Below are positions 33,980 through 46,799 of a stretch of 64,000 bases of DNA, one piece after another (position 1 is the stretch's first letter; every line of letters starts with the position of its first letter). Origin of the DNA: Sphingomonas sp. So64.6b (lineage in GTDB: Bacteria > Pseudomonadota > Alphaproteobacteria > Sphingomonadales > Sphingomonadaceae). The translations under genes were made by a program, and so were the position numbers. The notes beneath the pieces are model-generated. The model saw only the letters and a program-made list of their open reading frames with translations, was not told the DNA's origin and ran no database searches. Location: positions 3,038,001 through 3,102,000 of the forward strand of contig NZ_CP048817.1 of the NCBI RefSeq assembly GCF_014171475.1. Reading direction: 5' to 3'.

Positions 33980-36241
33980 TCAGCGCGCGATGCCGCCTGC
34001 TGCCAGCACCGCCAGCGTGACCAGTTCGCTTGCCGTGCTGGTCATCGGCGCGATCTGGACCGATTTCTCCATGCCGACCAGCATCGGGCCGATCACCGCG
34101 TCGCCGCCCAGTTCGCGCAGCAGCTTGGCCGAGATGTTGGCGCTTTGCAGCCCCGGCATGATCAGCACATTGGCCGGGCCGGAGAGCCGCGCGAAGGGAT
34201 AGTTCGCCAGCTGTTTCGGGTTGAGCGCAACGTCCGGCGCCATGTCGCCTTCATATTCGAAGCTGACACCCCGCCCGTCGAGCACGCCGACCGCGGCGCG
34301 GATATTCTCCAGCCAGCGCCCCTCGGGATTGCCGAAGGTCGAATAGCTGAGGAACGCGACGCGCGGTTCGTGACCCATGCGCCGCGCGACCGTCGCGGTC
34401 CCTTCGGCGATGTCGGCCAGTTCCTCGGCGCTTGGCCGTTCGTTGATCGTGGTGTCGGCCATGAACACGGTATGGCTTTGCCCGACCATCAGATGGATGC
34501 CGAACGGAGTGCGCCCGACCTCCGGATCGATTACGCGGCGCACTTCGCGCATGGTGTGCGCATAGGTCCGCGTGATGCCGGTGATCATCGCATCGGCATG
34601 GCCGAGCTGAAGCAGCACCGCGCCAAAGATGTTGCGGTCCTGATTGATCATCCGCTCGCAATCGCGGCGCAGATAACCGCGCCGCTGCAGCCGGCCATAG
34701 AGGAAATCGACCATCTCGGGTACGAGCGGCGAATTGCGGCTGTTGTGCAGTTCGTAGCTCTCCGGGTCCTGCACGCCGAGCGCCTTCAGCCGTTCCGGCA
34801 CATCGTCGCGCCCGACCAGGACCGGCGTGCCGTAACCGCCCTCGCGGAAGGCGATCGCCGCGCGCAGCACGACTTCCTCCTCGCCCTCCGCGAACAGCAC
34901 GCGCTTGGGATGCGCGCGCGCGCCTTCATACGCGAGCGTCAGCACCGACGTGGTCGGGTTCAATCGCCCGCGCAGCGTCTGGCGATAGGCCTCCATGTCG
35001 AGGATCGGCTTGGTCGCGACGCCCGAATCCATCGCCGCCTTCGCCACCGCGACCGGCACATTCTCCATCAGCCGCGGGTCGAACGGCGCGGGGATGATAT
35101 AGGCCGGGCCGAAGCTGTGCTGCACGCCATAGGCCGCGGCGACCTCCTCCGGCACGCGTTCGCGCGCCAGTTCGGCGATCGCGTTGGCGGCGGCGATCTT
35201 CATCGCATCGTTGATCCCCGTCGCGCGCACGTCGAGCGCACCGCGGAAGATGAACGGGAAGCCGAGCACATTGTTGACCTGGTTGGGATAGTCCGACCGC
35301 CCGGTCGCGACGATCGCGTCGGGCCGCGCGGCCATCGCCTCGGGCGGGGTGATCTCCGGATCCGGGTTGGCCATCGCGAAGATGATCGGGCGCGGCGCCA
35401 TGTCCTTGACCATTTCGGGCTTGAGTGCACCCGCCGCCGACAGGCCGAGGAACACGTCGGCGCCGACCAGCGCCTCGGTCAAAGTGCGCGTCGTGGTGTT
35501 GGCGGCATGCGCCGACTTCCACTGGTCCATGCCCTCGGTACGGCCCTGATAGATCACGCCGGAACGGTCGCACATGATGACATTGTCGGCGCGCACGCCC
35601 ATCGCCTTGATCAGCTCGGTACAGGCGATCGCCGCCGCGCCTGCGCCGTTGACCACCACCTTGACCTCGCTCATGTGGCGTCCGGTGAGCAGGCAGGCGT
35701 TGATCAGCCCGGCCGCGGTGATGATCGCGGTGCCGTGCTGATCGTCATGGAACACCGGGATGTTCATGCGTTCGCGCAGCGTCTGTTCGATGATGAAGCA
35801 TTCCGGCGCCTTGATGTCCTCAAGGTTGATCCCGCCAAAGCTCGGCTCCATCAATTCGACCGCGTCGATGAAGCGGTCGACATCCTCGGTCTTCAGCTCG
35901 ATATCGATCGCGTCGACATCGGCGAAGCGCTTGAACAGGACCGCCTTGCCTTCCATCACCGGCTTCGAGGCGAGCGCGCCGAGATTGCCCATGCCGAGAA
36001 TCGCGGTGCCGTTGGAGATGACCGCGACGAGATTGCCCTTAGCGGTATAGTCGTACGCGGTCGCGGGATCCTCATAGATCGCGCGCACCGGCACCGCGAC
36101 GCCAGGCGAATAAGCGAGCGCGAGGTCGCGCTGCGTCGCCATCGGCTTTGACGCGATGATCTCGATCTTGCCCGGCCGTCCTTCGGAATGGAACAGCAGC
36201 GCCTCGCGCTCGGAAAACTGGACGTTGCTATCTTCTGACAT
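33980..36241 (-). CDS. maeB: NADP-dependent malic enzyme (MaeB type)
   Basis: Oxidatively decarboxylates malate to pyruvate, supplying NADPH. The 753-residue length is that of the MaeB class: an N-terminal malic enzyme domain ([32 protein letters not shown] region, [13 protein letters not shown]) and a C-terminal phosphotransacetylase-like domain (about 430-753, [20 protein letters not shown] end). The C-terminal domain is regulatory in characterised members, responding to acetyl-CoA. The gene is monocistronic. Confidence 0.95.
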
Positions 36242-36829
36242 CTTGGCCTCTCGATCCTGGCCTCGTCTTTAGGAGGGACGCGCGGATATGCAAACCGGGT
36301 TGGTGTGCGCCACGCGACGGATTTTTCATGCGGCATTCCGCACGGTGCCGGCGGGTTCCCGGACAGAGCCGCCCGCCGGCGTCACGCCCGGCGCGTTTCG
36401 GGCAGATTGAGTCGGGCCGATATGACGGGTCGATCCGGCCGCTTCGCCGCGTGCCGGATTCGCGCCGCTGCGGGAGGTTTACGGGACAATGGTTTTTTGG
36501 GGGTTTTACGGGATTCCACGGGAGATTTTACTGGAAAATCGGCGCGGCGGCGCGGGAATCTTACGGTGCGCTTACGGGAATATCGGGAGGGGTCGGGGGT
36601 GGCGGTCATGCTCGGTCCTGTCGGGGTTCCGCTCGGTTTCGGGGCCGGTCGATTCAACGGGTCGGCCGGATCGATTGTCACGCGAGATGCGCCGCGCGGG
36701 AAGCAGGCATGGCCGCGCCGGGAATTGATGTGAATCGAGCCTGGCATGCGACAGGAGGGTGATGTTGCGGGCTTTGCCCGACCGGTGAAACTTGTTGGTA
36801 GCCAATCCGCTGCTAAGCATGTCGCCGCC
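36242..36829. other. 588-bp intergenic region rich in TTACGGG words
   Basis: No gene supported. Between 36476 and 36582 the words TTTACGGGA, TTTTACGGGA, TTTTACTGGAA, CTTACGGTG and CTTACGGGAA recur five times in about 100 bases, and a T-run and G-run (TTTTTTGGGGG) interrupt them. The copy of GGTGAAACTTGTTGGTAGCC that opens the duplicated gene unit starts at 36784. Confidence 0.5.
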
Positions 36830-37102
36830 ATGGTCAAACCCTTCGCCACGACATTGCGCTGCCGGATTTTCGGGCATCAGGGCGGCGCGCCGGTCCTGAA
36901 CGAGGGGCTGTATTTCACCCGCTGCGAACGCTGCGAACGCGACCTCATCCGGCAGCGCGGCGGGGACTGGTATGCGGTGCCGCCAGGCCTGCGCGTGGTG
37001 TGGAGGGAAGAGGGTCCCCACGCCGTCGCGCCGATGGATGCGCTGAACCTCGCGCATGGTGGGCGATGGGCGCAGATGAGCAAGGGGCGGTCGCGGGGTT
37101 AG
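36830..37102 (+). CDS. Small Cys-rich hypothetical protein, copy 1
   Basis: A 90-residue protein with LRCRIFGHQGG near the start and CERCERD, a CxxC pair that with the first Cys could bind zinc. RGGDWYAVPPGLRVVW and MDALNLAHGGRWAQM complete a compact fold. The ATG at 36830 is the common start with the second copy at 39597, which is about 90 percent identical by eye. The unit containing it runs from 36784 to about 37183, where a degenerate RAYT-type end follows. Function unknown. Confidence 0.65.
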   Translation: MVKPFATTLRCRIFGHQGGAPVLNEGLYFTRCERCERDLIRQRGGDWYAVPPGLRVVWREEGPHAVAPMDALNLAHGGRWAQMSKGRSRG

Positions 37103-37167
37103 TGGGGGAAGCTACTTCGGTTACGCGATGTCACTGTAATGCGTGCCTCAGTCGAAGGGCGCACTCC

Positions 37168-37183
37168 ACACGTGCCACCGAAC
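37168..37183. repeat. Degenerate type B element end
   Basis: CACGTGCCACCGAACT resembles the CACGTGTCACCGTAATT end of the array. It marks the left limit of the AT-rich DNA, and the same GCACTCCACA sequence precedes the end of the second gene copy (39951-39981). Confidence 0.5.
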
Positions 37184-37190
37184 TCTATTC

Positions 37191-37508
37191 TTATTTGATT
37201 TTCTTGATCATGTACTTCCAAGAAACTGACATACCGTAGGATAACAAGAAAAAAACTATAAGAACTCCCGCTAAGATCTTTAGCAATATTGATGCTTCAA
37301 CAAAAAAGACAAAATATGAGAGAGATCCCAAACAAATTAAAGAAACAGCTCTAATGGATTTATTGTATAAAATTAAATTTCCATACAGCCTCCCTAGATT
37401 ATTAGAGCTTTGTATATTTTCAAATACCGGAGGATTATATTTTATCCTCGACTCTTGGAGACGAGCGGATGAATACAGAAAAATAAATATAATCAAAATT
37501 TCAATCAA
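37191..37508 (-). CDS. Small AT-rich membrane protein
   Basis: A 105-residue protein with a hydrophobic N-terminus (IEILIIFIFLYSSARL) and two membrane helices around 52-72 and 76-96, ending in Lys-rich KYMIKKIK. The codons are strongly AT-rich, unlike the flanking genome. It is the leftmost cargo of the array, bounded by 37168-37183 and 37549-37562. No family recognised; small membrane proteins of this kind are common among mobile cargo. Confidence 0.55.
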   Translation of the reverse strand: MIEILIIFIFLYSSARLQESRIKYNPPVFENIQSSNNLGRLYGNLILYNKSIRAVSLICLGSLSYFVFFVEASILLKILAGVLIVFFLLSYGMSVSWKYMIKKIK

Positions 37509-37548
37509 TTTTTTCTACCTTACAGAAAATTTCATATTATTAGCATAG

Positions 37549-37562
37549 AATTACGGTGACAG
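37549..37562. repeat. Core element end
   Basis: AATTACGGTGACAG, followed 12 bases later by the full type A end. It is the first of two stacked ends on the left of the ankyrin unit. Confidence 0.75.
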
Positions 37563-37576
37563 TTTGAATTACGGGA

Positions 37577-37600
37577 TACGGTGACAGTTTACTTAACCCC
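37577..37600. repeat. Type A element end (left end of ankyrin unit)
   Basis: Contains TACGGTGACAGTTTACTTAA followed by CCCC. It is the inverted partner of 39526-39550. In RAYT orientation it follows the RAYT stop codon, which lies inside the repeat. Confidence 0.85.
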
Positions 37601-37684
37601 TAATTTCTTCGGCACAGGCCCACGCCTGTCGGGTGCCGACGTCCTGCCCTTGCGTACGTCGAGAGTTGTGAGCCATTCGATTCG
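37589..37684 (-). pseudogene. RAYT 3' scar (last 31 codons)
   Basis: Minus-strand frame RIEWLTTLDVRKGRTSAPDR followed by RGPVPKKLGVK and a stop. This matches the C-terminal WLxxLExxxGRxLAPxRRGPxPK pattern of REP-associated tyrosine transposases such as the one at 40467-41132. The rest of the gene is absent; the ankyrin lipoprotein gene ends 11 bases upstream of it. Confidence 0.7.
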
Positions 37685-37694
37685 GCACACATAA

Positions 37695-39317
37695 CTACTG
37701 GATGCCGTGCTCATCGAGCCAGTTTAGCGTTCCTGGCCAGTGTCGTTTGCGGGCCTGTTGTCGCAATGTACCGTCACGATCCTTTGCCTTCGGATCGGCA
37801 CCCGCACGAAGCAAGGTAAGCACGACCCGGTCGTCATCCACAGACAGCACGACGGTCGTCCCGTCGCCGTCTTTGGCGTTGGGGTTGGCTCCTGCGTTCA
37901 GGAGAATCCGCGTCACTGCCGGATCATCGCAACCCATCAGTGGCGTCCAACCAATATTGTCTTTGGCCTCCAACGGAACACCGAGAGCGACAAGCGCTGC
38001 GGCCATTTCAACCCGTTTGGCGCTCCCTGCATAGGCACAACGTCCGTAGCTGCTCCGGAGCGCATGCAACGCATTTCCGTTTTCGCCAACGGCCTTGGGA
38101 TTTGCTCCGGCTTCAACGAGAGCTTTGGCAATGCGGGCGCTGCACCCCATGCCACTAAGCAATGCCGAATCGAGGCTCTTCTTGCTCATCCGCGCGACTT
38201 GCCCTGCGCGCGACATGTCCTCGAACAACGCTTCGTTTCCGGTTTCTGCCGCATAAGATGCGATCACGGAGCCGATGGTTGCGGTTTCTTTCGACCGCCC
38301 GCGAACCCCTATGTTGACGGAAGTTGAAAAATCCAACCCGTTTGCGATTGCTGCCTGGATCAGTTCATTGGCACCAGCCTGGTTTGGGGGCCAATTGTTC
38401 AACTGGATCGCGGATCGGACGAGCTGCGCAGCGTCTCGTGACTTGAAGTCGAAGCCCTGGGCCTTGAGCAACGCGATCGTTTGAGCGTTCCCGCGAACCC
38501 ATCGATCAGTTCCCGCCAGTTGATCCACGGCATTTTCCAGAGCCGTGACGCCAGCAGGCATTCCTGCCTCCTTGCCGACATAATCGACCACGCGCTTGGT
38601 CGTTTTCCCAACGCGGAGCGTCAAAGCATAAGTCGGATTGTCGGTTACCCCGGCGAAATATTCCGGCTTCATGCCCATGAAGTGAGCGTCCCGAAATCTC
38701 TCAATCAGGACTGCAACGGCTTGCGGGCTGACCTCGGCGTCATGCGTCCCCGCCCACAGGACGTTCTCGCCGTTGAACATCCTGTGCACCTCCGCTGCAG
38801 TGCCGGGAAAATTCATTGTGCGGGTGGAGAAGCGGACCTTTCCGTCGTCCGTAATAGTCACCCGGTAATCCGGGCAAGTCCCGAAACAAGCGCTTCGTTC
38901 GAGGGTGATTTCAATGTCCCCCGGCGCAGCGGTCGGGAACGGCACGGACGCGTCAGGTGAAAATTCCGGGGGATCAAATTCAATCGTAATTTCGCCTAGC
39001 GCCTGAATCGGTTTGCCGTCGAAAGATTGCGGCCGGAACTTCCATTCCTTCGCAGCGGCCAAAGCGGCGCTGGCATCACCCTTGAACCTGTCGTCCACGA
39101 CCTTTGCATCGACGACATTCCCGTCCACATCGACGGTCACCAAAACTGAAACTTGGGCAAATCCGGACACCCCAGGCGCACGCACGGACTCGGCACCGGA
39201 GATGCGTTGAGACGACAAGCCATAGACACCAATTTTCGGTGCGGTTTGCGAGGACGCCGAGCAGCCCTGAAACGCGAGAAGCGCTATCGAAGCGTATGCA
39301 AAGCCCTTCAAATTCAT
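37695..39317 (-). CDS. Ankyrin-repeat lipoprotein with TonB-C-like and DUF6438 domains
   Basis: A 540-residue lipoprotein (LLAFQGC, Cys19). The domains in order are a TonB C-terminal-like fold (about 50-115: VSVLVTVDVDGNVVDAKVV, then AAAKEWKFRPQ), a DUF6438-type domain (about 130-245: ERSACFGTCPDYRVTITDDG) and ankyrin repeats (about 380-530: ALVEAGANPKAVGENGNALH, DDPAVTRILLNAGANPNAKDG). Lipidation suggests a periplasmic or surface role. It lies exactly between the N- and C-terminal scars of a RAYT gene in the same orientation. Codons are GC-richer than those of other cargo. Confidence 0.85.
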   Translation of the reverse strand: MNLKGFAYASIALLAFQGCSASSQTAPKIGVYGLSSQRISGAESVRAPGVSGFAQVSVLVTVDVDGNVVDAKVVDDRFKGDASAALAAAKEWKFRPQSFDGKPIQALGEITIEFDPPEFSPDASVPFPTAAPGDIEITLERSACFGTCPDYRVTITDDGKVRFSTRTMNFPGTAAEVHRMFNGENVLWAGTHDAEVSPQAVAVLIERFRDAHFMGMKPEYFAGVTDNPTYALTLRVGKTTKRVVDYVGKEAGMPAGVTALENAVDQLAGTDRWVRGNAQTIALLKAQGFDFKSRDAAQLVRSAIQLNNWPPNQAGANELIQAAIANGLDFSTSVNIGVRGRSKETATIGSVIASYAAETGNEALFEDMSRAGQVARMSKKSLDSALLSGMGCSARIAKALVEAGANPKAVGENGNALHALRSSYGRCAYAGSAKRVEMAAALVALGVPLEAKDNIGWTPLMGCDDPAVTRILLNAGANPNAKDGDGTTVVLSVDDDRVVLTLLRAGADPKAKDRDGTLRQQARKRHWPGTLNWLDEHGIQ

Positions 39318-39403
39318 GCCAATCGCCCCCGTCTTCAACGAGCAATTGATGGACGGACTGATCGGCATTCGCAAGGTTGTCCCTGCGCCAGATGCGATGA
39401 TGG

Positions 39404-39502
39404 CTATTTGCCATCCTCGAAGAACACCCGCTGGCGCCGGTTGCCGCGCTGCGTCACGTGATGGGCCAAGCCGGGCAGGACGAGGCGGGACAGGCGGGCC
39501 AT
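39404..39502 (-). pseudogene. RAYT 5' scar (first 32 codons, then stop)
   Basis: Reads MARLSRLVLPGLAHHVTQRG and NRRQRVFFEDGK followed by TAG. It is the unmistakable N-terminus of a REP-associated tyrosine transposase, cut off right after FFEDG. The upstream side carries the usual type A end. Together with 37589-37684 it shows that the middle of this RAYT gene has been replaced by cargo. Confidence 0.85.
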
Positions 39503-39525
39503 TGAGAGGCGTTAGACAGTTTAGA

Positions 39526-39550
39526 GGTTAAGTAAACTGTCACCGTAATT
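39526..39550. repeat. Type A element end (right end of ankyrin unit)
   Basis: GGTTAAGTAAACTGTCACCG followed by TAATT, the inverted partner of 37577-37600. The duplicated gene unit (copy 2) starts immediately after it at 39551. Confidence 0.9.
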
Positions 39551-39596
39551 GGTGAAACTTGTTGGTAGTCAATCCGCTGCTAAGCATGTCGCCGCC

Positions 39597-39869
39597 ATGG
39601 TCAAACCCTTCGCCACGACGTTGCGCTGCCGGATTTTCGGGCATCAGGGCGGCGCGCCGGTCCTGAACGAGGGGCTGTATTTCACCCGCTGCGAACGTTG
39701 TTCGCGCGATCTCATCCGGCAACCCGGCGGGGACTGGTATGCGGTGCCGCCGGGCATGCGCGTGGTGTGGAAGGAAGAGGGTCGCCATGCCATCGCGCCG
39801 ATGGACGCGCTGAACCTCGCGCATGGCGGGCGATGGGCGCAGATGAGCAAGAAACCGCCGCGCTCCTGA
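39597..39869 (+). CDS. Small Cys-rich hypothetical protein, copy 2
   Basis: A 90-residue near-duplicate of the protein at 36830, with CERCSRD in place of CERCERD and conservative changes elsewhere (PPGMRVVWKEEGRHAIAP). The nucleotide identity begins at GGTGAAACTTGTTGGTAG (39551), immediately beyond the type A end, and runs past the stop. Copies 1 and 2 are 2767 bp apart and flank the ankyrin unit. It is the only array gene on the plus strand. Confidence 0.65.
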   Translation: MVKPFATTLRCRIFGHQGGAPVLNEGLYFTRCERCSRDLIRQPGGDWYAVPPGMRVVWKEEGRHAIAPMDALNLAHGGRWAQMSKKPPRS

Positions 39870-39966
39870 CAGGCGGGGTGTCGCGGTAATTCGCGGTCGG
39901 GTCATGTGGTTTGGGAGGCCGTGTTAACTGTGTCTCATCACGGGGGTGCACTCCACAGTCCACACA

Positions 39967-39995
39967 TGTCACCGTAATTCCGTGTCACCGTAATC
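39967..39995. repeat. Two tandem core ends
   Basis: TGTCACCGTAATTCC is followed directly by GTGTCACCGTAATCC. They separate gene copy 2 from the next AT-rich stretch. Confidence 0.8.
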
Positions 39996-40099
39996 CCAAG
40001 TCGCGGCCATCGCAAAGGATCAGATGCCCAGAGACGTGTGAGACATCATGCACAATAATTTGTGTACGATGCAAATCATGGATTGCAGAAGCGCACCTC

Positions 40100-40342
40100 T
40101 CAAAGTATACATTCTCCAAATGTAACACAATGATTTGAAGGTAGAAATGCAGTAATGGGAGAAATTAGTATTGGTATAATACTAATGTAAAAAAGTAATA
40201 AATTCAGCACACGATTGCGCGCGCAGAAACTTACAAACATCCAAATTAATAACATGACTATAGAAAGTATCCAACCATAAATAGGGTGGATATGCCAATT
40301 CTTTAATGTGACAGTAAATGTAATCGATGCAACCGAAATCAA
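40100..40342 (-). CDS. Small AT-rich membrane protein
   Basis: An 80-residue protein with two hydrophobic helices (about 22-40 and 48-66: GWILSIVMLLIWMFVSF, LLLFYISIIPILISPI). The DNA is strongly AT-rich. It lies in a cargo position between the tandem ends at 39967-39995 and the RAYT unit at 40438. No ribosome site is convincing, and an overlapping frame starts at 40370, so the start is uncertain. Function unknown. Confidence 0.4.
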   Translation of the reverse strand: MISVASITFTVTLKNWHIHPIYGWILSIVMLLIWMFVSFCARNRVLNLLLFYISIIPILISPITAFLPSNHCVTFGECIL

Positions 40343-40437
40343 AATAGAGACAATCCTGGGTATTTAACAACCATTGAAGCCGTAGCTAGCTGGGCATCCT
40401 TCACCATCTAATCCTCGCTTTTTAGTATATCTATGAA

Positions 40438-40466
40438 GGAATTAAGGTGGCACGTGCAATAACCCC
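40438..40466. repeat. Type B element end (left)
   Basis: GGAATTAAGGTGGCACGTGC then AATAACCCC; two changes relative to the right-hand end. It abuts the RAYT stop codon. Confidence 0.8.
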
Positions 40467-41132
40467 TTAACTCTCCTTCGGCGCCGGCCCGCGCTTGCGC
40501 GGCGTAAGGGGCAGGCCGCTGCGCTCCTCCATATCCGCCAGCCACTCCTTCGAACCGACCGGGCGCCCGATACTCTCGGCCTTGCGCAGCGCGGCATAGC
40601 CCATTGCATCGTCGAACGCCCCGCCCAGGAAAGTCGTAAAGTCGCCCACCCGCTCCAGCGCCGGCGCGACATCGACGAAGCGATCCCCCTCGCCGGCAAT
40701 ATGCGCCGTGGTGCTCGACCAGCGCCAGTCCTCGGCCCGATCGGTCAGCTTCGCCCGGACCGGATTGAGCGCGACATAACGCAGCGCGCTGACCAGATGC
40801 GCTTCGTCCATCGCCACCGAGCTGAAGCGGCCCTGTCACAAATGCCCGGTCACTCGCAGGCGCGCGTTGATATAGCCGGTGTAATGGCGATGGACGTACC
40901 GGAACGTCCGGCGCAGCCCGTCCTCGTCGCTCGGCACGGCGATGATGTGGACATGGTTGGGCATCAAGCAATAACCCCAGATCGCCACCCGCGACCGCTC
41001 CGCCGCCTCGGCGAGCAGATCCAGGTATAGCGCATAATCGCCATCCTCGAAGAACACCCGCTCGCGCCGGTTACCGCGCTGCGTCACGTGATGCGGGATA
41101 CCCGGAAGGACGATGCGCGCGAGTCTGGCCAT
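40467..41132 (-). pseudogene. REP-associated tyrosine transposase (RAYT) with one TGA codon
   Basis: A 221-codon HUH transposase frame. It begins MARLARIVLPGIPHHVTQRG, carries the HUH motif MPNHVHIIAV, and ends LTPRKRGPAPKES. Codon 99 is TGA (40836-40838) where both other RAYTs have TGG (GHLWQGRF), a single G-to-A change. The downstream frame is otherwise intact (ALRYVALNPVRAKL, DDAMGYAALRKAESIG). RAYTs cut single-stranded DNA at palindromic ends. It is either a very recent pseudogene or a sequencing error; reading through would restore the full protein. Confidence 0.85.
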
Positions 41133-41166
41133 TGGATCAGGCTAGCGACACGCAGCGCCGAACAAA

Positions 41167-41195
41167 GGGGTTATTGCACGTGTCACCGTAATTCC
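41167..41195. repeat. Type B element end (right)
   Basis: GGGGTTATTG followed by CACGTGTCACCGTAATTCC. It forms the 5' boundary of the complete RAYT unit and interrupts the next RAYT gene at codon 127. Confidence 0.9.
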
Positions 41196-41577
41196 GCGCT
41201 CGCACCGGATTGAGACTCACATAGCGCAGGGCATGCGCCACATGCGCGTCGTCCATCGCCACCGACCCGAACCGCCCCTGCCACAAATGCCCGGTCCGTC
41301 GCGCGCGCGCATTGATGAAGCCGGTATAGCGCCGATGCAGGTCGCCGAAGGTGCGCCTGAGCCCGTCCTCATCCGAGGGCACGACGATTGCGTGGACGTG
41401 ATTGGGCATCAGGCAATAGCCCCACACCTCGACATTCGCGCGCTCAGCGGCTTGCGCGAACAGGTCGAGATACAGCGCGTAGTCGCCATCCTCGAAGAAC
41501 GTCGCCTGACGACCATTGCCGCGCTGCGTCACGTGATGCGCGAGACCGGGGACTACCAAGCGGGACAGACGGGCCAT
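41196..41577 (-). pseudogene. RAYT, truncated after 127 codons
   Basis: Begins MARLSRLVVPGLAHHVTQRG, with MPNHVHAIVVPSDEDG and GHLWQGRFGSVAMDD, and is intact to LNPVRAR, where the type B end of the neighbouring unit begins. The reading frame then runs on to a stop at 41137 as NYGDTCNNP, which is repeat sequence. It is nearly identical to the RAYT at 43513-43907 and belongs to a different subgroup from 40467-41132. The 3' half of the gene is not found next to it. Confidence 0.85.
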
Positions 41578-41600
41578 GAATGAGGGCTAGGTGAGTTTGG

Positions 41601-41626
41601 GGGTTAAGTAAACTGTCACCGTAACC
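41601..41626. repeat. Type A element end
   Basis: GGGTTAAGTAAACTGTCACC then GTAACC, 24 bases upstream of the truncated RAYT start. Its other side is a lipoprotein cargo gene. Confidence 0.85.
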
Positions 41627-41641
41627 CCACACGTAATGCAC

Positions 41642-42073
41642 TCAATTTACGATTGGCTTATTATAATTCCATCGATCCTGCGTGCATCTATTCGCAGAAC
41701 AAAGGAGACTGTTACTCACTATCTCACCAATATCTTTAATAGTGTCGCATGATACTTCAGGTTCAATGTGTATAACCAGCTTTCCGGCGGCAGCAGGCAT
41801 TTTTGAAAGCTCAAGCATGTATCTCCTTAAAGTTTCGTTATCTACATCCTGACCATTCCATATTTTATTACCATACTTACTTACTAGTAAATGCCAGTAC
41901 TCGTATTGAGATTTATCATTGACTTTCGGTATATTTAGGCGGGTAGCACAACTGCGAGACGCCTCACTCTTATTCTCAGAATGAGCCTTTTCTCGCGAAG
42001 GGGAGCACGCTACCGGAAGAGCCGCTAATATGACGGCCGACATAATCGGTCGGAATTTCACCTTATGGTTCAT
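41642..42073 (-). CDS. Small lipoprotein, possible ExbD-like domain
   Basis: A 143-residue lipoprotein (ALPVAC, Cys23). After a Ser/Lys/Glu-rich linker, the segment RRYMLELSKMPAAAGKLVIH followed by IEPEVSCDTIKDIGEIV resembles the periplasmic alpha/beta domain of ExbD/TolR proteins, though without their membrane anchor. Four Cys in the C-terminal third could form disulfides. The DNA is AT-rich. It lies between a type A end (41601-41626) and a type B end (42153-42178), a typical cargo position. Confidence 0.65.
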   Translation of the reverse strand: MNHKVKFRPIMSAVILAALPVACSPSREKAHSENKSEASRSCATRLNIPKVNDKSQYEYWHLLVSKYGNKIWNGQDVDNETLRRYMLELSKMPAAAGKLVIHIEPEVSCDTIKDIGEIVSNSLLCSANRCTQDRWNYNKPIVN

Positions 42074-42152
42074 ATATTTACCTACAATTAATATGGCTTT
42101 TGCTGGAAAAACACGTCACCTGAGTATTTCTAGGACTTGCAGTTGCTTTTCC

Positions 42153-42178
42153 ATTACGGTGACACGTGCAACAACCCC
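42153..42178. repeat. Type B element end
   Basis: ATTACGGTGACACGTGCAAC then AACCCC, followed by TTAACTCTCCTTCGG, which is the last 15 bases of a RAYT gene (compare 40467-40481). It is the inverted partner of 42302-42330. Confidence 0.85.
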
Positions 42179-42191
42179 TTAACTCTCCTTC

Positions 42192-42282
42192 GGAATTACG
42201 GTGACAGTCCACTTTTCTATGCCGCAACGCATCATAAGCTACTCGCGGGCGACGGCAATTAGTGGACTGTCACCGTAATTCC
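42192..42282. mobile_element. Miniature inverted-repeat element, copy 1
   Basis: A 91-bp element whose ends are perfect 22-bp inverted repeats beginning GGAATTACGGTGACAGTCCA, around a GC-rich 47-bp middle. It has no coding capacity. It sits inside the remnant of a RAYT unit, right after the RAYT terminal bases CTCCTTCGG, so it is nested. The outer core AATTACGGTGACAG is shared with the RAYT ends. Confidence 0.9.
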
Positions 42283-42301
42283 GATGCATGACGTGGAGTA
42301 A

Positions 42302-42330
42302 AGGGGTTGTTGCACGTGTCGCCGTAATTT
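42302..42330. repeat. Type B element end
   Basis: GGGGTTGTTGCACGTGTCGC then CGTAATTT, inverted relative to 42153-42178. Between the two only RAYT scar bases and the miniature element remain. Confidence 0.85.
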
Positions 42331-42364
42331 TCACGTATTCCTACACGTTTTACCGTAATTAAAA

Positions 42365-42760
42365 TTATTTTAGGCTATCGGTGTAGATATATATTTCTGA
42401 TGTTTTTATCAATGGATTCCCATTTGGATCGTTTCTAAATATAGTACCTTTTATTTTTACTTTGGCTGAAACAGTGACTGCCATTTGATCGTGAGATCTT
42501 TTCTCCTCTAAAAAATCTTTTATTATAGTAAATTTATCGTTCGGTATAACCGCAGCCCCAATGGATTCTTTTGGGCATTTTCTATTAAGCAACAATGTGC
42601 CAGCTTTATAAAAATAAACAAGCTCCGCAGTCCCCTCTACTGCGGAATCATTCTTTAAATACCCCCAACAATCATCAATAGATATCCTCGTTATTTTTTG
42701 AGAAAACCCGCATCCATAGATCATTAAAGCTAAAGGTATAGCCATCAGAATCCTGAACAT
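42365..42760 (-). CDS. Small AT-rich lipoprotein
   Basis: A 131-residue lipoprotein (ALMIYGC, Cys17). The mature part alternates beta-like stretches (GTAELVYFYKAGTLLL, MAVTVSAKVKIKGTIF) and has three Cys after the lipid site or near it. No family recognised. Strongly AT-rich codons contrast with the GC-rich flanks. It lies between a type B end on its 3' side and the second miniature element on its 5' side. Confidence 0.65.
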   Translation of the reverse strand: MFRILMAIPLALMIYGCGFSQKITRISIDDCWGYLKNDSAVEGTAELVYFYKAGTLLLNRKCPKESIGAAVIPNDKFTIIKDFLEEKRSHDQMAVTVSAKVKIKGTIFRNDPNGNPLIKTSEIYIYTDSLK

Positions 42761-42861
42761 CTAGCCTCCGCTATACTGTAATTCATTCCACTGTCTTTTC
42801 TTAATCCCTTAGCGCAAGAGCTCATGGCCCTCGGTTTAACCCATCCGCTAAGAGGGTTTAC

Positions 42862-42951
42862 GAATTACGGTGACAGTCCACTTTTCTATGCCGCAACGCA
42901 TCATAATCTACTCGCGAGCGACGGCAATTAGTGGACTGTCACCGTAATTCC
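42862..42951. mobile_element. Miniature inverted-repeat element, copy 2
   Basis: 90 bp, identical to copy 1 except for a missing outer G and two substitutions in the middle (CTACTCGCGAGCG for CTACTCGCGGGCG, and one T for G). The inverted ends are intact. It separates two lipoprotein cargo genes. The near identity of the copies points to recent movement or gene conversion. Confidence 0.9.
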
Positions 42952-42957
42952 GTAATT

Positions 42958-43362
42958 CTAGAAATCTATGGTAGGCAGAAGATGGAATTTCCAAACGATA
43001 GCTGTCACAACCTCATTTTTCCGAAGTAGAAAGACACGGCCTCGCCGAAAGGTACTGCTTAATGCGTAAGCATCACTTTGCTGATCGGAGCGGCAACTCA
43101 CAGCTTCGTCAATAGTGAAGCCGCATTCACCCCCATCAAGATATTCTAATCCTTGTTTTTCAAGTACAGCCCTCGCCGTTCTCCGATTCATTCCAACGGT
43201 CACATCGAACTTGCTACCGCTTGTAATGTAACCCGCATAATAGCCATTCGTGCCTTGCGGAATCTAGCGAGAGGTGCCGCAACCCTCCGCTAAAAACAAC
43301 ACCACCCCAACCAAGGCGACAGCCAAACTTCGGGTTATAGTCGGCCATCTTTGAAGCCACAT
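42958..43362 (-). pseudogene. Lipoprotein gene with one in-frame amber codon
   Basis: From the ATG at 43362 the frame reads MWLQRWPTITRSLAVALVGV with lipobox LAEGC (Cys28) and GTSR, then TAG at codon 33 (43264-43266). It continues without another stop for 101 codons (IPQGTNGYYAGYITSGSKFD, VEK-like middle, ending LLPTIDF). The part after the stop could restart only from a GTG at 43203, without a signal peptide. One nucleotide change would restore a normal 134-residue lipoprotein, like its neighbours in the array. Confidence 0.75.
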
Positions 43363-43486
43363 AATCAACAAGCCAACTGCTGGGTGCACAGGTCATATGC
43401 GCGAGGCGGCGGGGGTGGGGCACGACCGACCTGCCCCGACTGATTAAATCCAGGAGTAAATCTGGAGGTATTAATTTCTGAGCTCG

Positions 43487-43512
43487 AATACGGCGACACG
43501 TGCAATAACCCC
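43487..43512. repeat. Type B element end
   Basis: AATACGGCGACACGTGCAAT then AACCCC. It truncates the adjacent RAYT gene four codons beyond the point where the 41196-41577 copy is cut. Confidence 0.85.
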
Positions 43513-43907
43513 TCTGCGACCAGCCGCGCTCGCACCGGATTGAGGCTCACATAGCGCAAGACATACGCCACATCTGCGTCGTCCATCGCTACCGATCCCA
43601 ACCGACCCTGCCACAAATGTCCGGTCCGTCGCGCGCGCGCATTGATGAAGCCGGTATAGCGCCGGTGCAGATCGCCAAAGGTCCGCCTCAGCCCATCCTC
43701 ATCCGAGGGCACGACGATCGCATGGACGTGATTGGGCATCAGGCAATAGCCCCACACCTCGACATTCGCGCGCACGGCGGCTTCGGCGAACAGGTCGAGG
43801 TACAGCGCGTAGTCGCCGTCCTCGAAGAACGTCGCCTGACGGCCATTGCCGCGCTGCGTCACATGATGTGCGAGACCGGGGACGACGAGGCGGGACAGGC
43901 GAGCCAT
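43513..43907 (-). pseudogene. RAYT, truncated after 131 codons
   Basis: MARLSRLVVPGLAHHVTQRG, MPNHVHAIVVPSDEDG and GHLWQGRLGSVAMDD are intact up to NPVRARLVAE, then the type B end begins. The open frame reads on through the repeat to 43365 as a meaningless tail. Very similar to the copy at 41196-41577. Both lost their last 90 or so codons at almost the same place, which argues for a shared mechanism rather than random decay. Confidence 0.85.
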
Positions 43908-43930
43908 GAGCGAAGGTTAGGCGAGTTTAG

Positions 43931-43955
43931 GGATTAAGTAAACTGTCACCGTAAT
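43931..43955. repeat. Type A element end
   Basis: GGATTAAGTAAACTGTCACC then GTAAT, 23 bases upstream of the RAYT start. The TGA stop of the next cargo gene is formed by the TTACGGTGA of this repeat. Confidence 0.85.
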
Positions 43956-44431
43956 CGCCCGTAATTCTCTGTCACATGATCCTGCACGGGCAAATTTACG
44001 ACGGCACTCAATATTAAAATAGGTTTTATATTGGTTGATGGAACAGTTGATAAACTACAATCAAATAGCACGACTTGAAAATAGAAATTATTTTGCATTA
44101 CAGAGTCTTTAGGGATTTCAACATTAATAGAATAACCGAGGATTCCGCTTCGAGGTTTGGATGATATGTCATTTAGACCTTCTACGTCTTTTGCAGATAC
44201 CTTCTTAATATGCACAGGATGCTTTGCGTTGACACCATCAACTATTAAGTACCCATTCGTTAAAATGGATTCTGGAGAATAGCATAGCCCATTTATATGC
44301 GTCGAATTAACAGTCACAAGAAAGCTATCTCGGCGCTCAGCTACAGATACTGACCCTTGCTCAGAGGGGAAGCAAGAATTCAAGCCAGCCACAGCCCATA
44401 GAGCGGCTGCCCAACCGACGAAATTCTTCAT
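43946..44431 (-). CDS. AT-rich exported protein, probable lipoprotein
   Basis: A 161-residue protein with a signal peptide ending GLNSC (Cys20, an acceptable lipobox). The mature domain is beta-rich (DSFLVTVNSTHINGLCYSPE, YSINVEIPKDSVMQNNFYFQ) with a later Cys pair candidate. The codons are AT-rich. The frame ends inside the type A repeat, whose bases supply the last residues GRLR and the stop, so the original C-terminus may have been replaced at the junction. No family recognised. Confidence 0.6.
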   Translation of the reverse strand: MKNFVGWAAALWAVAGLNSCFPSEQGSVSVAERRDSFLVTVNSTHINGLCYSPESILTNGYLIVDGVNAKHPVHIKKVSAKDVEGLNDISSKPRSGILGYSINVEIPKDSVMQNNFYFQVVLFDCSLSTVPSTNIKPILILSAVVNLPVQDHVTENYGRLR

Positions 44432-44457
44432 AAATAATTCCCTATGGTCCTGCTACG

Positions 44458-44485
44458 ATTACGGTAACATTTTACCTAACCACCA
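44458..44485. repeat. Degenerate type A element end
   Basis: GATTACGGTAACATTTTACC then TAACCACC, a type A end with four or five changes. It separates two AT-rich cargo genes. Confidence 0.65.
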
Positions 44486-44507
44486 ATACTATAGGTTCAA
44501 TACAGCA

Positions 44508-44924
44508 CTATAGATCATACCAATCCGTTTCAATTAAATCTGTGCTTATATCACTGAGTAATAGTAATTTTGATGGCGGGGGGATTATGTCGGAATTCCG
44601 GACGCATATCCAGGCATCGTAGTCAAAACCAAAAGATAAAAAACGGCAATCACTTCCTTTAATCTTAATTTCCATTTCGCCACTGACGGCTGGATAGACT
44701 ATTTTGTTCACATCTCTATCGATAATTATATGTCCGTCCACAAATACCGGTGAGATGTCTGTAGAATCTGGTACGCAATATTTGACTTTTAGGTCAACTA
44801 TTGAGTTAATATTGATAAGTTCCCTAATAAAAACTACCATAGAAGAACAATATTCCTCAAGATCGTCCTGCCTTAGTCTGGATCCGGATATCTGGACAGA
44901 TGGAGAAATATCCCATAAACGCAT
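44508..44924 (-). CDS. AT-rich hypothetical protein
   Basis: A 138-residue soluble protein without a signal peptide: MRLWDISPSVQISGSRLRQD, SIVDLKVKYCVPDSTD, SGEMEIKIKGSDCRFLSFGF and an acidic end (TDLIETDWYDL). It looks like a compact alpha/beta protein of the size common among immunity proteins, which is only a guess. The strongly AT-rich codons mark it as foreign. It is the rightmost complete cargo, bounded by 44458-44485 and 45017-45079. Confidence 0.55.
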   Translation of the reverse strand: MRLWDISPSVQISGSRLRQDDLEEYCSSMVVFIRELININSIVDLKVKYCVPDSTDISPVFVDGHIIIDRDVNKIVYPAVSGEMEIKIKGSDCRFLSFGFDYDAWICVRNSDIIPPPSKLLLLSDISTDLIETDWYDL

Positions 44925-45016
44925 GATTACTCACCAACTCGGTTTAAATCTCTGTCATACGTACCTAATCTGACATCTCTATTGCGGAAACCTGATGGCA
45001 CGGGCGATGCTTTCCA

Positions 45017-45079
45017 GATTACGTTGACAGTTTAGATTACGGTGACAAGATTACGGTGACAGTTTACTTAACCCCTAAA
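45017..45079. repeat. Three stacked element ends
   Basis: GATTACGTTGACAGTTTA, GATTACGGTGACA and a full GATTACGGTGACAGTTTACT lie head to tail within 63 bases. Stacked partial ends like this suggest repeated insertion or excision at one boundary. Confidence 0.85.
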
Positions 45080-45114
45080 CTCTTCGGTGCCGGCCCGCAC
45101 TTCGCCGGGGCAAG
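45064..45114 (-). pseudogene. RAYT 3' scar (last 16 codons)
   Basis: Frame LAPAKCGPAPKSLGVK then stop, matching the end of the RAYT family and almost identical in form to the scars at 37589-37684 and 56819-56866. Nothing upstream of it is RAYT; a secreted-protein gene start is fused there instead. Confidence 0.65.
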
Positions 45115-45208
45115 TGTCCCACCATAATTTCTGCGCCAGCGCGACCGCCGGGCCCCCGACCAGCGTGAGGCAGGCAGCACCCGCCAAAAGCTTCTGTTTT
45201 TGTTGCAT
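45068..45208 (-). pseudogene. Truncated secreted protein fused to RAYT scar
   Basis: From the ATG at 45208 a good signal peptide (MQQKQKLLAGAACLTLVGGP, cleavage near ALA-QK) is followed by only 20 residues (LWWDTCPGEVRAGTEEFRG) that are encoded by a degenerate type B end, the RAYT scar and the type A end. The stop comes from the repeat. It appears to be the 5' end of a host gene that lost its body when the array formed. Confidence 0.6.
45110..45131. repeat. Degenerate type B element end (right limit of array)
   Basis: GGCAAGTGTCCCACCATAAT resembles TTGCACGTGTCACCGTAAT. To its right the sequence becomes GC-rich and core-like. Confidence 0.5.
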
Positions 45209-45413
45209 GCTGCCCCCCAGATCGATCGCGCACCGACCCACGGATCAGCATAAACACCAATCCAATCGGCGCCAGACCTCGATCGCCATCATATCCAAAT
45301 CGGTTCCATCGCCTGATCGGCCATCCAGTGCTCTCCAGCCACTCACCCACACCAAACAGCCGTTCGCCCGCAACCACGCAGCTTGGCCCGCCGCGTGGCG
45401 GCACTGGGCCGCT

Positions 45414-45902
45414 ATGACCTTGGACTTTCCCCCGGCGCGACGCCTTGTGGCGGCGAACCGGTTGGGGAGGGGTCGCTTGGCATCATCGGCGTTTTTCGGG
45501 GAGCGGCCGGGCGCGCGCTGGCGACCGGTGATCGACTGTCGGACGGCGATCGCGCGGCGTGGTGCGCTGACCCTGATGGACGATCCGATCGAGATATTGC
45601 GTCACGGCGTGCCGATGGGCCTGTCGCCGACCGAGACGGCGTTGATTGCGCTGCTCGTGCGGCGCGGCCGCGCGACGCAAGGGGAGATCGCCGCGTTGTT
45701 CGCTGACGTCGGCTCCAGCGCGGCCCATCTGTCGGTCAACATATTCCGCATCCGGCGCAAGTTCGCCGCGGCCGGCGCGCCCGATCCGGTCGAGGTGTTG
45801 CGCGGGTGGGGCCTGAGGCTGCGCGTCGAGCCCGATGCCAGGGGGTCGACATCGTTATGGATCGGCGGGTCGGGCGATATCGCCGCGGGGATGACAAGGT
45901 GA
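45414..45902 (+). CDS. Winged-helix (OmpR/PhoB-type) DNA-binding protein
   Basis: A 162-residue protein whose C-terminal 75 residues form an OmpR-like winged helix: LSPTETALIALLVRRGRATQ, then GEIAALFADV, HLSVNIFRIRRKFAAAGAPD and EVLRGWGLRL. The N-terminal 70 residues are basic and do not form a receiver domain, so it is a stand-alone regulator. I chose the ATG at 45414 because the longer upstream frame runs through the truncated secreted gene on the other strand. Targets unknown. Confidence 0.7.
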   Translation: MTLDFPPARRLVAANRLGRGRLASSAFFGERPGARWRPVIDCRTAIARRGALTLMDDPIEILRHGVPMGLSPTETALIALLVRRGRATQGEIAALFADVGSSAAHLSVNIFRIRRKFAAAGAPDPVEVLRGWGLRLRVEPDARGSTSLWIGGSGDIAAGMTR

Positions 45903-45921: not shown

Positions 45922-46032
45922 ACCGTCATGCTGAACTTGTTTCAGCATCCATGCGCGGCCAGTTGCCAAAAAGACGACACCCAAGGGGCGGATGACCGCG
46001 CCTGGATGCTGAACCAAGTTCAGCATGACGGC
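45922..46032. repeat. Intergenic inverted repeat, GAACTTGTTTCAG family, copy 2
   Basis: CCGTCATGCTGAACTTGTTT at the left and its complement at the right (AACCAAGTTCAGCATGACGG). Same family as 8667-8775. Confidence 0.85.
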
Positions 46033-46085: not shown

Positions 46086-46553
46086 ATGACGCTCGAACGG
46101 TCACGCGCGGCGGTCACGGCGACCCTGGTGTGTGGCGCGCTCGACATTCTCAGCGCGTTCGTGTTTGCCGGAATCAGGGGAACGACGCCGGTGCAAGTGC
46201 TGCGCACCGTCGCCTCCGGGCCGTTCGGCGCGGGCATGCGCGATACCGGCCTGGCCGGTGCGGCGATCGGCCTGCTGACCCATTTCGCGATCATGGCGGT
46301 GATGGTTGCCGTGTTCGTCCATGCGGCAAGCCGCATTGCGGCGATCCGGGTCCGGCCAATGCTGGCGGGGACCGGTTATGGCCTGTTGCTCTACGGCGTG
46401 ATGTACTGGATCGTGGTACCGCTTCGCTGGGGCAATTTCCCGCGCCTCGCACCATGGCCGATCGGCACCGCGCTGTTCGCGCACATCGTCTGTGTCGGCA
46501 TTCCGATGGCGCTGATCACGCTGCGGTATCTCAGGGCTGACGATCGGCGCTAG
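46086..46553 (+). CDS. Hypothetical four-helix membrane protein
   Basis: A 155-residue protein with four membrane segments (about 10-30, 55-85, 97-115, 125-147). SGPFGAGMRDTGLAGAAIGL and MYWIVVPLRWGNFPR are conserved-looking loops of a family seen widely in alphaproteobacteria but without assigned function. The ATG at 46086 places the first helix at the N-terminus. Flanked on both sides by palindromic repeats, so probably monocistronic. Confidence 0.7.
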   Translation: MTLERSRAAVTATLVCGALDILSAFVFAGIRGTTPVQVLRTVASGPFGAGMRDTGLAGAAIGLLTHFAIMAVMVAVFVHAASRIAAIRVRPMLAGTGYGLLLYGVMYWIVVPLRWGNFPRLAPWPIGTALFAHIVCVGIPMALITLRYLRADDRR

Positions 46554-46718
46554 AGCAGTTTCGAGTTGAATTGATCCACCCTCTTCCGTTCTGGCTGAGC
46601 CTGTCGAAGCCCCGTTCTCTCTTGCGGCAGAGGCAGCAGAAGAAGAACGGCCCCCTTCGACTGCCTGTCAAGGCAGGCGCTCAGGACAGGCTTCGACAGG
46701 CTCAGGGCGAACGGAAGG
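46551..46718. repeat. Long intergenic palindrome, copy 2
   Basis: Near-identical to 12257-12420, starting with TAGAGCAGTTTCGAGTTGAA. It begins exactly at the stop codon of the upstream membrane protein gene (the TAG is its first three bases). Confidence 0.85.
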
Positions 46719-46799
46719 GAGTGGATCAACTCAGATCGAATTTGCTTAAGCGGAACCCCGCCCAACGTCGCTTTGCTGCGGGTGAGCGTCGGTCGACAC

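Follow-up and report, generated by a model that had tools for sequence, protein, structure and literature searches.

Integron cassettes consist of one gene plus a site, carry orphan and defence cargo and are swapped as units, and in the minimal mobile elements of Neisseria strains differ in which single gene lies between a given pair of conserved genes. REP (repetitive extragenic palindromic)-associated tyrosine transposases (RAYTs) are described as single-copy, vertically inherited, domesticated genes (PMC8049555, PMC8266576), and REPtrons as apparently not transposing as whole units (PMC6006769). The name TIRYT was given in PMC3733652 to RAYT-like genes flanked by terminal inverted repeats; the repeats of these TIRtrons are unrelated to GTAG, moderately abundant, and single, dimeric or grouped. 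The accessible parts of these four papers make no mention of cargo, and no paper on RAYT-bounded genes was found among the matches listed in searches of the open literature, whose coverage leaves out subscription papers and preprints. Here, we analyzed a stretch of 64,000 nucleotides from Sphingomonas sp. So64.6b (positions 3038001-3102000 of the 5.06-Mb single-contig genome; the whole stretch is referred to as the window), which contains an array of single genes set between short repeats (termed END) that are also the ends of RAYT-like elements.

The array is real and general, and on balance it is probably a chain of one-gene, sometimes two-gene cassettes bounded by ENDs and moved by a RAYT acting in trans. 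END-bounded units, mostly low-GC single genes, were also found in Sphingopyxis, Novosphingobium and Sphingorhabdus as well as elsewhere in Sphingomonas. Single foreign genes between RAYT-like ends, at slots where some related species hold a differing gene or none, suggest an unrecognised route of gene collection.

END repeats bound single low-GC genes

The array is flanked by a maeB-like gene (ending at 36241) and an open reading frame (ORF) at 45087-45902, the true start of which is unclear. It comprises eight minus-strand genes, three larger RAYT pieces, three short RAYT remnants and about 21 repeat copies. The sequence AATTACGGTGACA is present in the window in 14 copies at up to one mismatch (8 exact), all located in 37549-45061, compared with 0.04 copies expected per window from 100 shuffles. 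A wider definition (at most one mismatch, or two if a typed extension is present) yields 21 copies in the window, every one of them inside the array. Seven of the eight genes have a GC content of 0.30-0.47, versus 0.64 for the window outside the array.

END is a repeat of 33 bp (GGA-ATTACGGTGACAGTTTACTTAACCCC[T/C]AA[A]...), as shown by an alignment of 115 type A copies from several genomes, from which copies with an indel before CCCC were dropped; conservation falls to background on either side, and a GT[AG]G foot is absent from the profile. Besides type A, types B (...CACGTGCAATAACCCC) and C (...GTCCACTTTTC) share the same core. END doublets form one long hairpin each (3 tested, z -8.5 to -12.2), as expected of any inverted pair; for the type C doublet at 42193-42283 the value was z -8.7. 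For single ENDs, folding did not exceed that of shuffled sequences (five examined, z -1.2 to +1.4), so that recognition of single ENDs as hairpins is unsupported. With 0-23 exact END 12-mers per genome (61 plus 15 genomes), the repeat is of low copy number.

The orientation of the ENDs was determined for 83 neighbouring pairs, 200-3000 bp apart, from the window and from loci picked by the repeat and not by cargo. Pairs without a RAYT had their cores facing inward in 39 cases, outward in 2 and in tandem in 22, and pairs containing a RAYT were outward in 16 cases, tandem in 4 and never inward. For the RAYT-free pairs, the ratio of 39 inward to 2 outward departs strongly from 1:1 (p = 7.8e-10), and both exceptions hold RAYT remnants, one of them being the unit at 37575-39550 of the window. 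Among the 78 outer sides of the 39 inward units, 32 were solitary (no partner END or RAYT within 1 kb; the window pieces at 43955-45036 were merged in one unit), 26 faced a RAYT, 16 a partner END and 4 a contig end; 8 of the 39 units were solitary at both sides. Insertion of whole elements beside a gene does not explain these solitary sides and units.

The base composition changes at the ENDs as well. Over 400 bp, the GC content was 0.506 on the core side, 0.577 on the outer side and 0.638 in controls more than 2.5 kb away. This analysis covered 103 ENDs, after 48 of 151 had been dropped for a RAYT on a side, and sites of one array are not independent. GC was lower on the core side in 77 of the 103 ENDs (73 of 95 with the window excluded), and values below 0.50 were reached on 47 core sides, 15 outer sides and in 1.6% of 2169 control windows. 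The repeats are therefore not scattered at random over the genome without cargo in between: 13 of the 19 exact genome-wide copies of the 12-mer ATTACGGTGACA lie inside the 8-kb array, ENDs stand at low-GC borders and their orientation is strict.

Tandem partial ENDs accumulate 3' of the cargo (L084, L091, L134, L146, L147, L152, L163 and the window) and may be scars of repeated events. END-bounded units are often found beside housekeeping genes, named by reading: nrdB, EF-Tu/ribosomal, GroEL, HU and TyrS (L134, L138, L089, L086, L137, L163).

Slots with swapped cargo and sites without a unit

The structure and its presence or absence between species are well supported. The slot after nrdB was examined in 47 Sphingopyxis genomes, of which 7 had been located via an END and 40 were fetched irrespective of ENDs out of 77 genomes with a match. 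A low-GC ORF of at least 80 aa follows the 76-aa gene after nrdB in 33 of the 40 (some are perhaps not genes), and a typed END was seen in plus orientation in 8/40 and in minus orientation in 0/40. The cargo differs between most species. Some is common to several: an MT-A70-like protein in four, 271-aa proteins with 95% identity in two, and DUF4145/PD-T7-4-like proteins in several. In L202, the ENDs are present and the cargo is absent; between L134 and L138, the flanks are ~84-90% identical and the cargo is unrelated. END units beside nrdB were also found in Sphingorhabdus (L113) and in the genus of the window (L079). Even without a recognised END, the Sphingopyxis slot (L166-L205) is hypervariable and rich in defence genes (restriction, AbiC, PIN, ParA-like). 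The left border of the slot, always the stop of the 76-aa gene, was considered as a precise insertion site and rejected, since the coding DNA is conserved and the next intergenic region is not.

The genes of the two further slots, cobT and hup (HU-like), were named by reading. At cobT, G161 has neither insert nor END and is, among the matches listed, the sole unbroken match to the joined flanks of G100 (91%; 80 genomes). Compared with G161, the genomes G100, G110 and G093 depart from the host sequence at one point, between GGCGAG and T, which is where END starts. The left END is clear in G100 (27 of 31) and degenerate in G110 (0 of 1000 shuffles as good) and G093 (7 of 1000). G093 additionally carries a typed END pair further in, around a 251-aa ORF; the plus-oriented END of this pair stands at the right border. 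In G112 there is no insert, but the intergenic DNA has diverged, and in many other genomes the genes of the slot are closer together with different spacers. Similarly, at hup, G159 lacks the 2.07-kb array of G090, which consists of a RAYT read in two frames, two cassettes and ENDs. The flanks are 92-96% identical, G159 is the only genome among the matches listed with both flanks adjacent, and the border is blurred over about 50 bp.

In the genus of the window, an MFS/AraC-like flank is common to L004 and G070 (91% identity) and adjoins different END-bounded neighbours; their far flanks differ too. L004 and L155, from two genera, carry related 8xMP/SLATT cargo (54% identity) at loci unrelated to each other, the END of L155 being ~600 bp from the gene. 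For the single-lipoprotein unit of L007, no relative with both flanks was found among 131 genomes.

The array itself is not conserved in its genus: beside maeB, no array, typed END or cargo was found in 34 genomes (one side, up to ~13 kb; 5/34 on short contigs), the exceptions being one chance core match and one 26-residue RAYT-like match in L067. The genes of the window's right flank are absent to the right of maeB in all 34 (5 on short contigs). Among 61 genus genomes, only G070 has kept a close relative of the histidine kinase (69%), and homology between the window and G070 starts at 45510. An empty site for the window could not be demonstrated, and a near sister strain was not found among the searched genomes. 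Unrelated genes do occupy homologous units in sister species, as the nrdB slot shows.

Composition of the array in the window

The features of the array are given below. Genes were called as ORFs with their GC content, and ENDs by repeat search, unless another basis is named.

36784-37084, plus strand: GC-rich host-like gene segment, copy 1 (94% identity over 301 bp to 39551-39851)
37191-37508, minus strand: cargo 1, 105 aa, membrane-like by reading, GC 0.30, no Pfam match
37549-37603, plus strand: tandem type A ENDs with cores at 37550 and 37575
37575-39550, no strand assigned: type A element with outward cores, RAYT core replaced by a lipoprotein gene (cargo 2); RAYT 3' remnant at 37577-37650, 5' remnant at 39405-39510
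37695-39374, minus strand: cargo 2, lipoprotein with TonB_C, DUF6438 and ankyrin repeats (ORF, Pfam), 559 codons from TTG, GC 0.58
39518-39550, minus strand: type A END
39551-39851, plus strand: GC-rich host-like gene segment, copy 2, starting at the core edge of END 39518-39550
39963-39995, minus strand: two END cores in tandem, 3' of cargo 3
40100-40342, minus strand: cargo 3, 80 aa, membrane-like by reading, GC 0.32
40441-41194, minus strand: RAYT element R1 with type B ends (sequence comparison), RAYT gene 40467-41132 broken by one in-frame TGA
41194-41577, minus strand: RAYT R2, C-terminal part missing (ORF, comparison)
41594-41626, minus strand: type A END
41642-42073, minus strand: cargo 4, 143 aa, lipoprotein by reading, GC 0.42
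42152-42329, no strand assigned: type B END doublet enclosing a nested type C doublet at 42193-42283 (repeat search, folding)
42365-42760, minus strand: cargo 5, 131 aa, GC 0.35, lipoprotein by reading; no homologue in a protein search
42862-42952, no strand assigned: second copy of the type C doublet (98% identical)
42958-43203, minus strand: cargo 6, 81 aa, GC 0.47
43487-43957, minus strand: RAYT R3 (43518-43907), C-terminal part missing, with a type B END (43487) on one side and a type A END (43923-43957) on the other (ORF, repeat search)
43946-44431, minus strand: cargo 7, 161 aa, GC 0.41, lipoprotein by reading; no homologue in a protein search
44458-44490, plus strand: degenerate END separating cargo 7 and 8
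44508-44924, minus strand: cargo 8, 138 aa, GC 0.38
45018-45125, plus strand: three tandem END cores (45018, 45036, 45050), then a RAYT 3' remnant; right array edge

The original prediction had described this array as starting at 36784, with some 17 short repeats of two end types, at least eight small, mostly AT-rich genes, nearly all on the minus strand, and intact or broken RAYTs interleaved with them. This observation is confirmed, with four corrections. The repeat copies number 14 to 21, depending on the definition, and the end types are three. Eight genes are present, seven of them with low GC, and the one at 37695-39374 is neither small nor AT-rich. Of the interleaved RAYTs, namely R1-R3 and the three short remnants, none is intact. 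The first ~300 bases of the range are a copy of the duplicated GC-rich plus-strand segment, which is of another kind than the cassettes. A single orientation of the cargo applies within the window; outside it the bias is weak (48 of 73 adjacent ORFs; 38 of 62 at free ends, p = 0.098), and a strong one-way orientation as a general rule is thus unsupported.

Four of the eight array genes have lipoprotein-like N-termini by reading. For cargo 2, an ATG at 39317 is the likely start, again by reading. Cargo 5 and 7 gave self-matches only in a search of 5.8 billion proteins, and a Pfam scan of seven of the eight cargo proteins (cargo 3 left out) gave a match in the DUF6438 protein only. The 3' end of cargo 7 extends into an END core. 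Read in frame, the core gives NYGD or NYGR (41137-41577, 43946-44431, L089), so that some ORFs enter ENDs and take their last residues from them. Outside the array, long inverted repeats were noted at 45923-46031 (39 nt, 92% complementary) and 46548-46752 (64 nt, 81%).

RAYT-like elements and their distribution

The sole full RAYT found in the genome is a protein of 221 aa encoded at 428 kb (L001). R1 and this intact element share 91.6% identity over the 753 bp that run from one core to the other, whereas their surroundings are unrelated; copies of such similarity at two loci in one genome indicate that the element spreads. R3 and the N-terminal piece of R1 matched PF01797 (Y1_Tnp) above the cut-off. 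The intact protein contains the motifs HVH and RYVTLNPVRA, read directly, which we take to be the HUH and catalytic Tyr motifs of a Y1 transposase. Against the NCBI equivalog NF047646 (cut-off 80 bits), five proteins scored 72.3, 56.7 (the truncated R3), 76.7, 70.5 and 80.0 bits. Since four of the five fall under the cut-off and single ENDs form no stable hairpins, "RAYT-like" is the more exact name. General scans of the RAYT-like proteins returned matches to Y1_Tnp and NF047646 only, with no search aimed at a C-terminal helix-turn-helix. Array borders commonly carry N-terminal RAYT fragments of ~22-54 codons adjoining an END (L137 6409, L121 484, window 39405), and two of the three short remnants in the window may derive from one gene.

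Type A ENDs were found in 25 stretches of a named genome collection, and every record assigned to order, family or genus is a sphingomonad (Sphingopyxis, Sphingorhabdus, Novosphingobium, Sphingomonas, plus Sphingomonadaceae and Sphingomonadales); two are assigned only to Pseudomonadota or Alphaproteobacteria. In Sphingopyxis, 24 of 80 genomes have type A ENDs and 13 have a RAYT or fragments (15 including G145 and G148 at 43-44% identity). ENDs are present in 10 of the 13 genomes with a RAYT or fragments versus 14 of the 67 without (Fisher 1.9e-4), or in 10/15 versus 14/65 (p = 1.3e-3) when the 43-44% hits are counted. RAYT matches in plasmids were all below 60% identity. A plasmid or viral vehicle is unsupported by these searches, which covered plasmids and viral contigs.

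Cargo families outside the window

We compared two sets of proteins with Pfam. The first consisted of 78 hand-picked END-adjacent or neighbouring proteins (66 of 73 adjacent ORFs plus 12 added; 7 doubtful ORFs were dropped), and the 25 of 36 families listed include GmrSD, Abi_C, RelA_SpoT, NYN, HEPN_Swt1, CAP12 TIR, reverse transcriptase, Imm26, Imm39 and Imm70. The second comprised 50 proteins of the nrdB slot (49 of 54, plus one), most of these slots being without an END, and here the 25 of 32 families listed include BglII, NaeI, Vsr, C5 methylase, BrnT, AbiC, ThsB TIR and PIN. In addition, PADLOC gave matches in 8 of 20 hand-picked proteins, which is no unbiased rate: Drt6/Drt4, HEC-06, PDC-S33, an AriA/GajA-type ATPase, AbiJ, PD-T4-10_B and PD-T7-4 twice (one weak). 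The PD-T4-10_B match, in L006, comes from the window's own genome.

Possible origin of the cassettes

Units, boundaries, END orientation, swapped cargo and two sites without a unit were observed directly. Each cassette lies between two 33-bp ENDs with the AATTACGG cores facing the gene, and the outer END edge (...AACCCC[T/C]AA) is the edge of the inserted unit. RAYT-like HUH elements use the same ENDs reversed, with cores outward, so that cassettes and RAYT elements alternate and share ends. What moves the units, by which strand chemistry, into which targets and to what benefit is inferred as follows. A RAYT acting in trans (here from 428 kb) would most likely nick single-stranded DNA at ENDs and move or join cassettes, preferably into sites beside an END or into a GAGT-like target; GAGT matches the cobT empty site and may be a preference, not more. 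The cassettes would be retained for their own benefit, as orphan lipoproteins here and partly as phage-defence, TIR and immunity genes elsewhere. A more far-reaching version, possible but short of probable, is a cassette system driven by an HUH transposase: genes flanked by 33-bp ENDs would be cut out and put in one at a time by RAYT-like proteins, with doublets as the points of joining, and sphingomonads would employ it for collecting and exchanging one-gene phage-defence and immunity functions at fixed chromosomal slots.

Several results weigh against movement of END-bounded cassettes by a RAYT. At nrdB, 32 of the 40 slots have no typed END, and 26 of these hold a low-GC ORF, which means that another process also fills this slot. 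At cobT, two of the three left ENDs (G110, G093) fall below the detection limit, the right-side END is absent in G110, and the other insert found in G134 is free of ENDs over the 1.5 kb available; the right junctions of both empty sites, cobT and hup, are blurred over tens of bases. The folding of single ENDs is unlike that of the REP substrates of known RAYTs, and the GAGT foot is in place in 35 of 146 ENDs with intact CCCC (187 examined). None of the seven scanned cargo proteins of the window matched a defence family. There was no match to the RAYT element in plasmids and no exact A-type END in viral contigs, and no transposition was observed. The capture of unrelated genes by RAYT-recognised ends, as originally predicted, is partly supported, namely for the ends bounding single foreign genes, for unrelated genes in the same slot of sister species and for the sites without a unit. 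A RAYT may be the capturing agent; in the 14 of 24 END-bearing Sphingopyxis genomes without a detectable RAYT, trans action, later RAYT loss or another mover has to be supposed.

The main rival, which we regard as unlikely, is an exchange in the style of minimal mobile elements: hypervariable slots between conserved genes would be exchanged through homologous recombination of their flanks once DNA has been taken up, and the ENDs would be older RAYT debris at cargo borders, carried along. The long, conserved flanks fit this, as does the fact that most nrdB slots have cargo and no typed END, and a mobility gene was not noticed in most slots. It accounts poorly, however, for the strict END orientation of 39 to 2, for the stop of host identity at the END start at cobT in three species (the END being degenerate in two), for the related 8xMP/SLATT cargo at unrelated loci of two genera, and for ENDs that are rare per genome yet concentrated at cargo borders. 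Ordinary RAYT/REPIN insertion, in which whole elements and END doublets enter an AT-rich foreign island and the "cassettes" are the gaps between them, appears improbable. Elements and doublets do separate genes in the window, L101 and L120, the two 91.6%-identical element copies show spread, and inward cores around gaps are what this process by itself predicts. Against it stand the solitary units and sides (8/39 and 32/78), outer sides closer to host GC, and two sites free of unit and ENDs together; furthermore, no solitary pair with outward cores and free of RAYT remnants turned up. A degenerate chromosomal integron, or another site-specific recombinase using RAYT-end-like sites, is very improbable, since the RAYT element itself terminates in the same repeat. 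It would share the orphan lipoprotein genes, the single orientation in the window, the gene-plus-repeat units and the doublets folding as long hairpins, but no Rfam family or tRNA was found in the array, and no integrase was noticed among its ORFs (no search was aimed at integrase or attC).

If RAYT relatives do move genes, this would provide a concrete host benefit for RAYTs, otherwise described as domesticated movers of tiny non-coding repeats whose value for the host is uncertain, and a route of gene capture independent of integrases. In practical terms, the 33-bp end offers a handle for new single-gene defence systems in sphingomonads, with END-adjacent proteins without matches as candidates.

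Comparison with known systems

With RAYTs, REPtrons and their REPINs, the elements described here share a Y1 transposase (PF01797), a gene flanked by inverted repeats and non-autonomous doublets of the same repeat. They differ in having 33-bp inverted-repeat ends instead of GTAG-footed REP hairpins, few copies per genome instead of high-copy dispersed repeats, an element at two loci in one genome, and ends that bound cargo. TIRtrons and their TIRYTs are similar in combining a RAYT-like protein with terminal inverted repeats that are unrelated to GTAG, moderately abundant and single, dimeric or grouped, and here the RAYT lies between outward ENDs in 16 of 20 RAYT-containing pairs, the other 4 being tandem. 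END is without GGGGWSAS, however, and cargo is not described for TIRtrons in the accessible part of PMC3733652.

In the way they work, the units resemble integron cassettes: one gene plus a site, orphan or defence cargo, one orientation in the window and swapped units. Slots with and without a unit, with an END on at least one border, may reflect an exchange of gene and site together. Unlike integron cassettes, they share their ends with an HUH transposase and are also solitary at many loci. As in the minimal mobile elements of Neisseria, different single genes lie between the same conserved genes; in contrast to these, the units described here often end at a defined 33-bp sequence, END, which a transposase carries as well.

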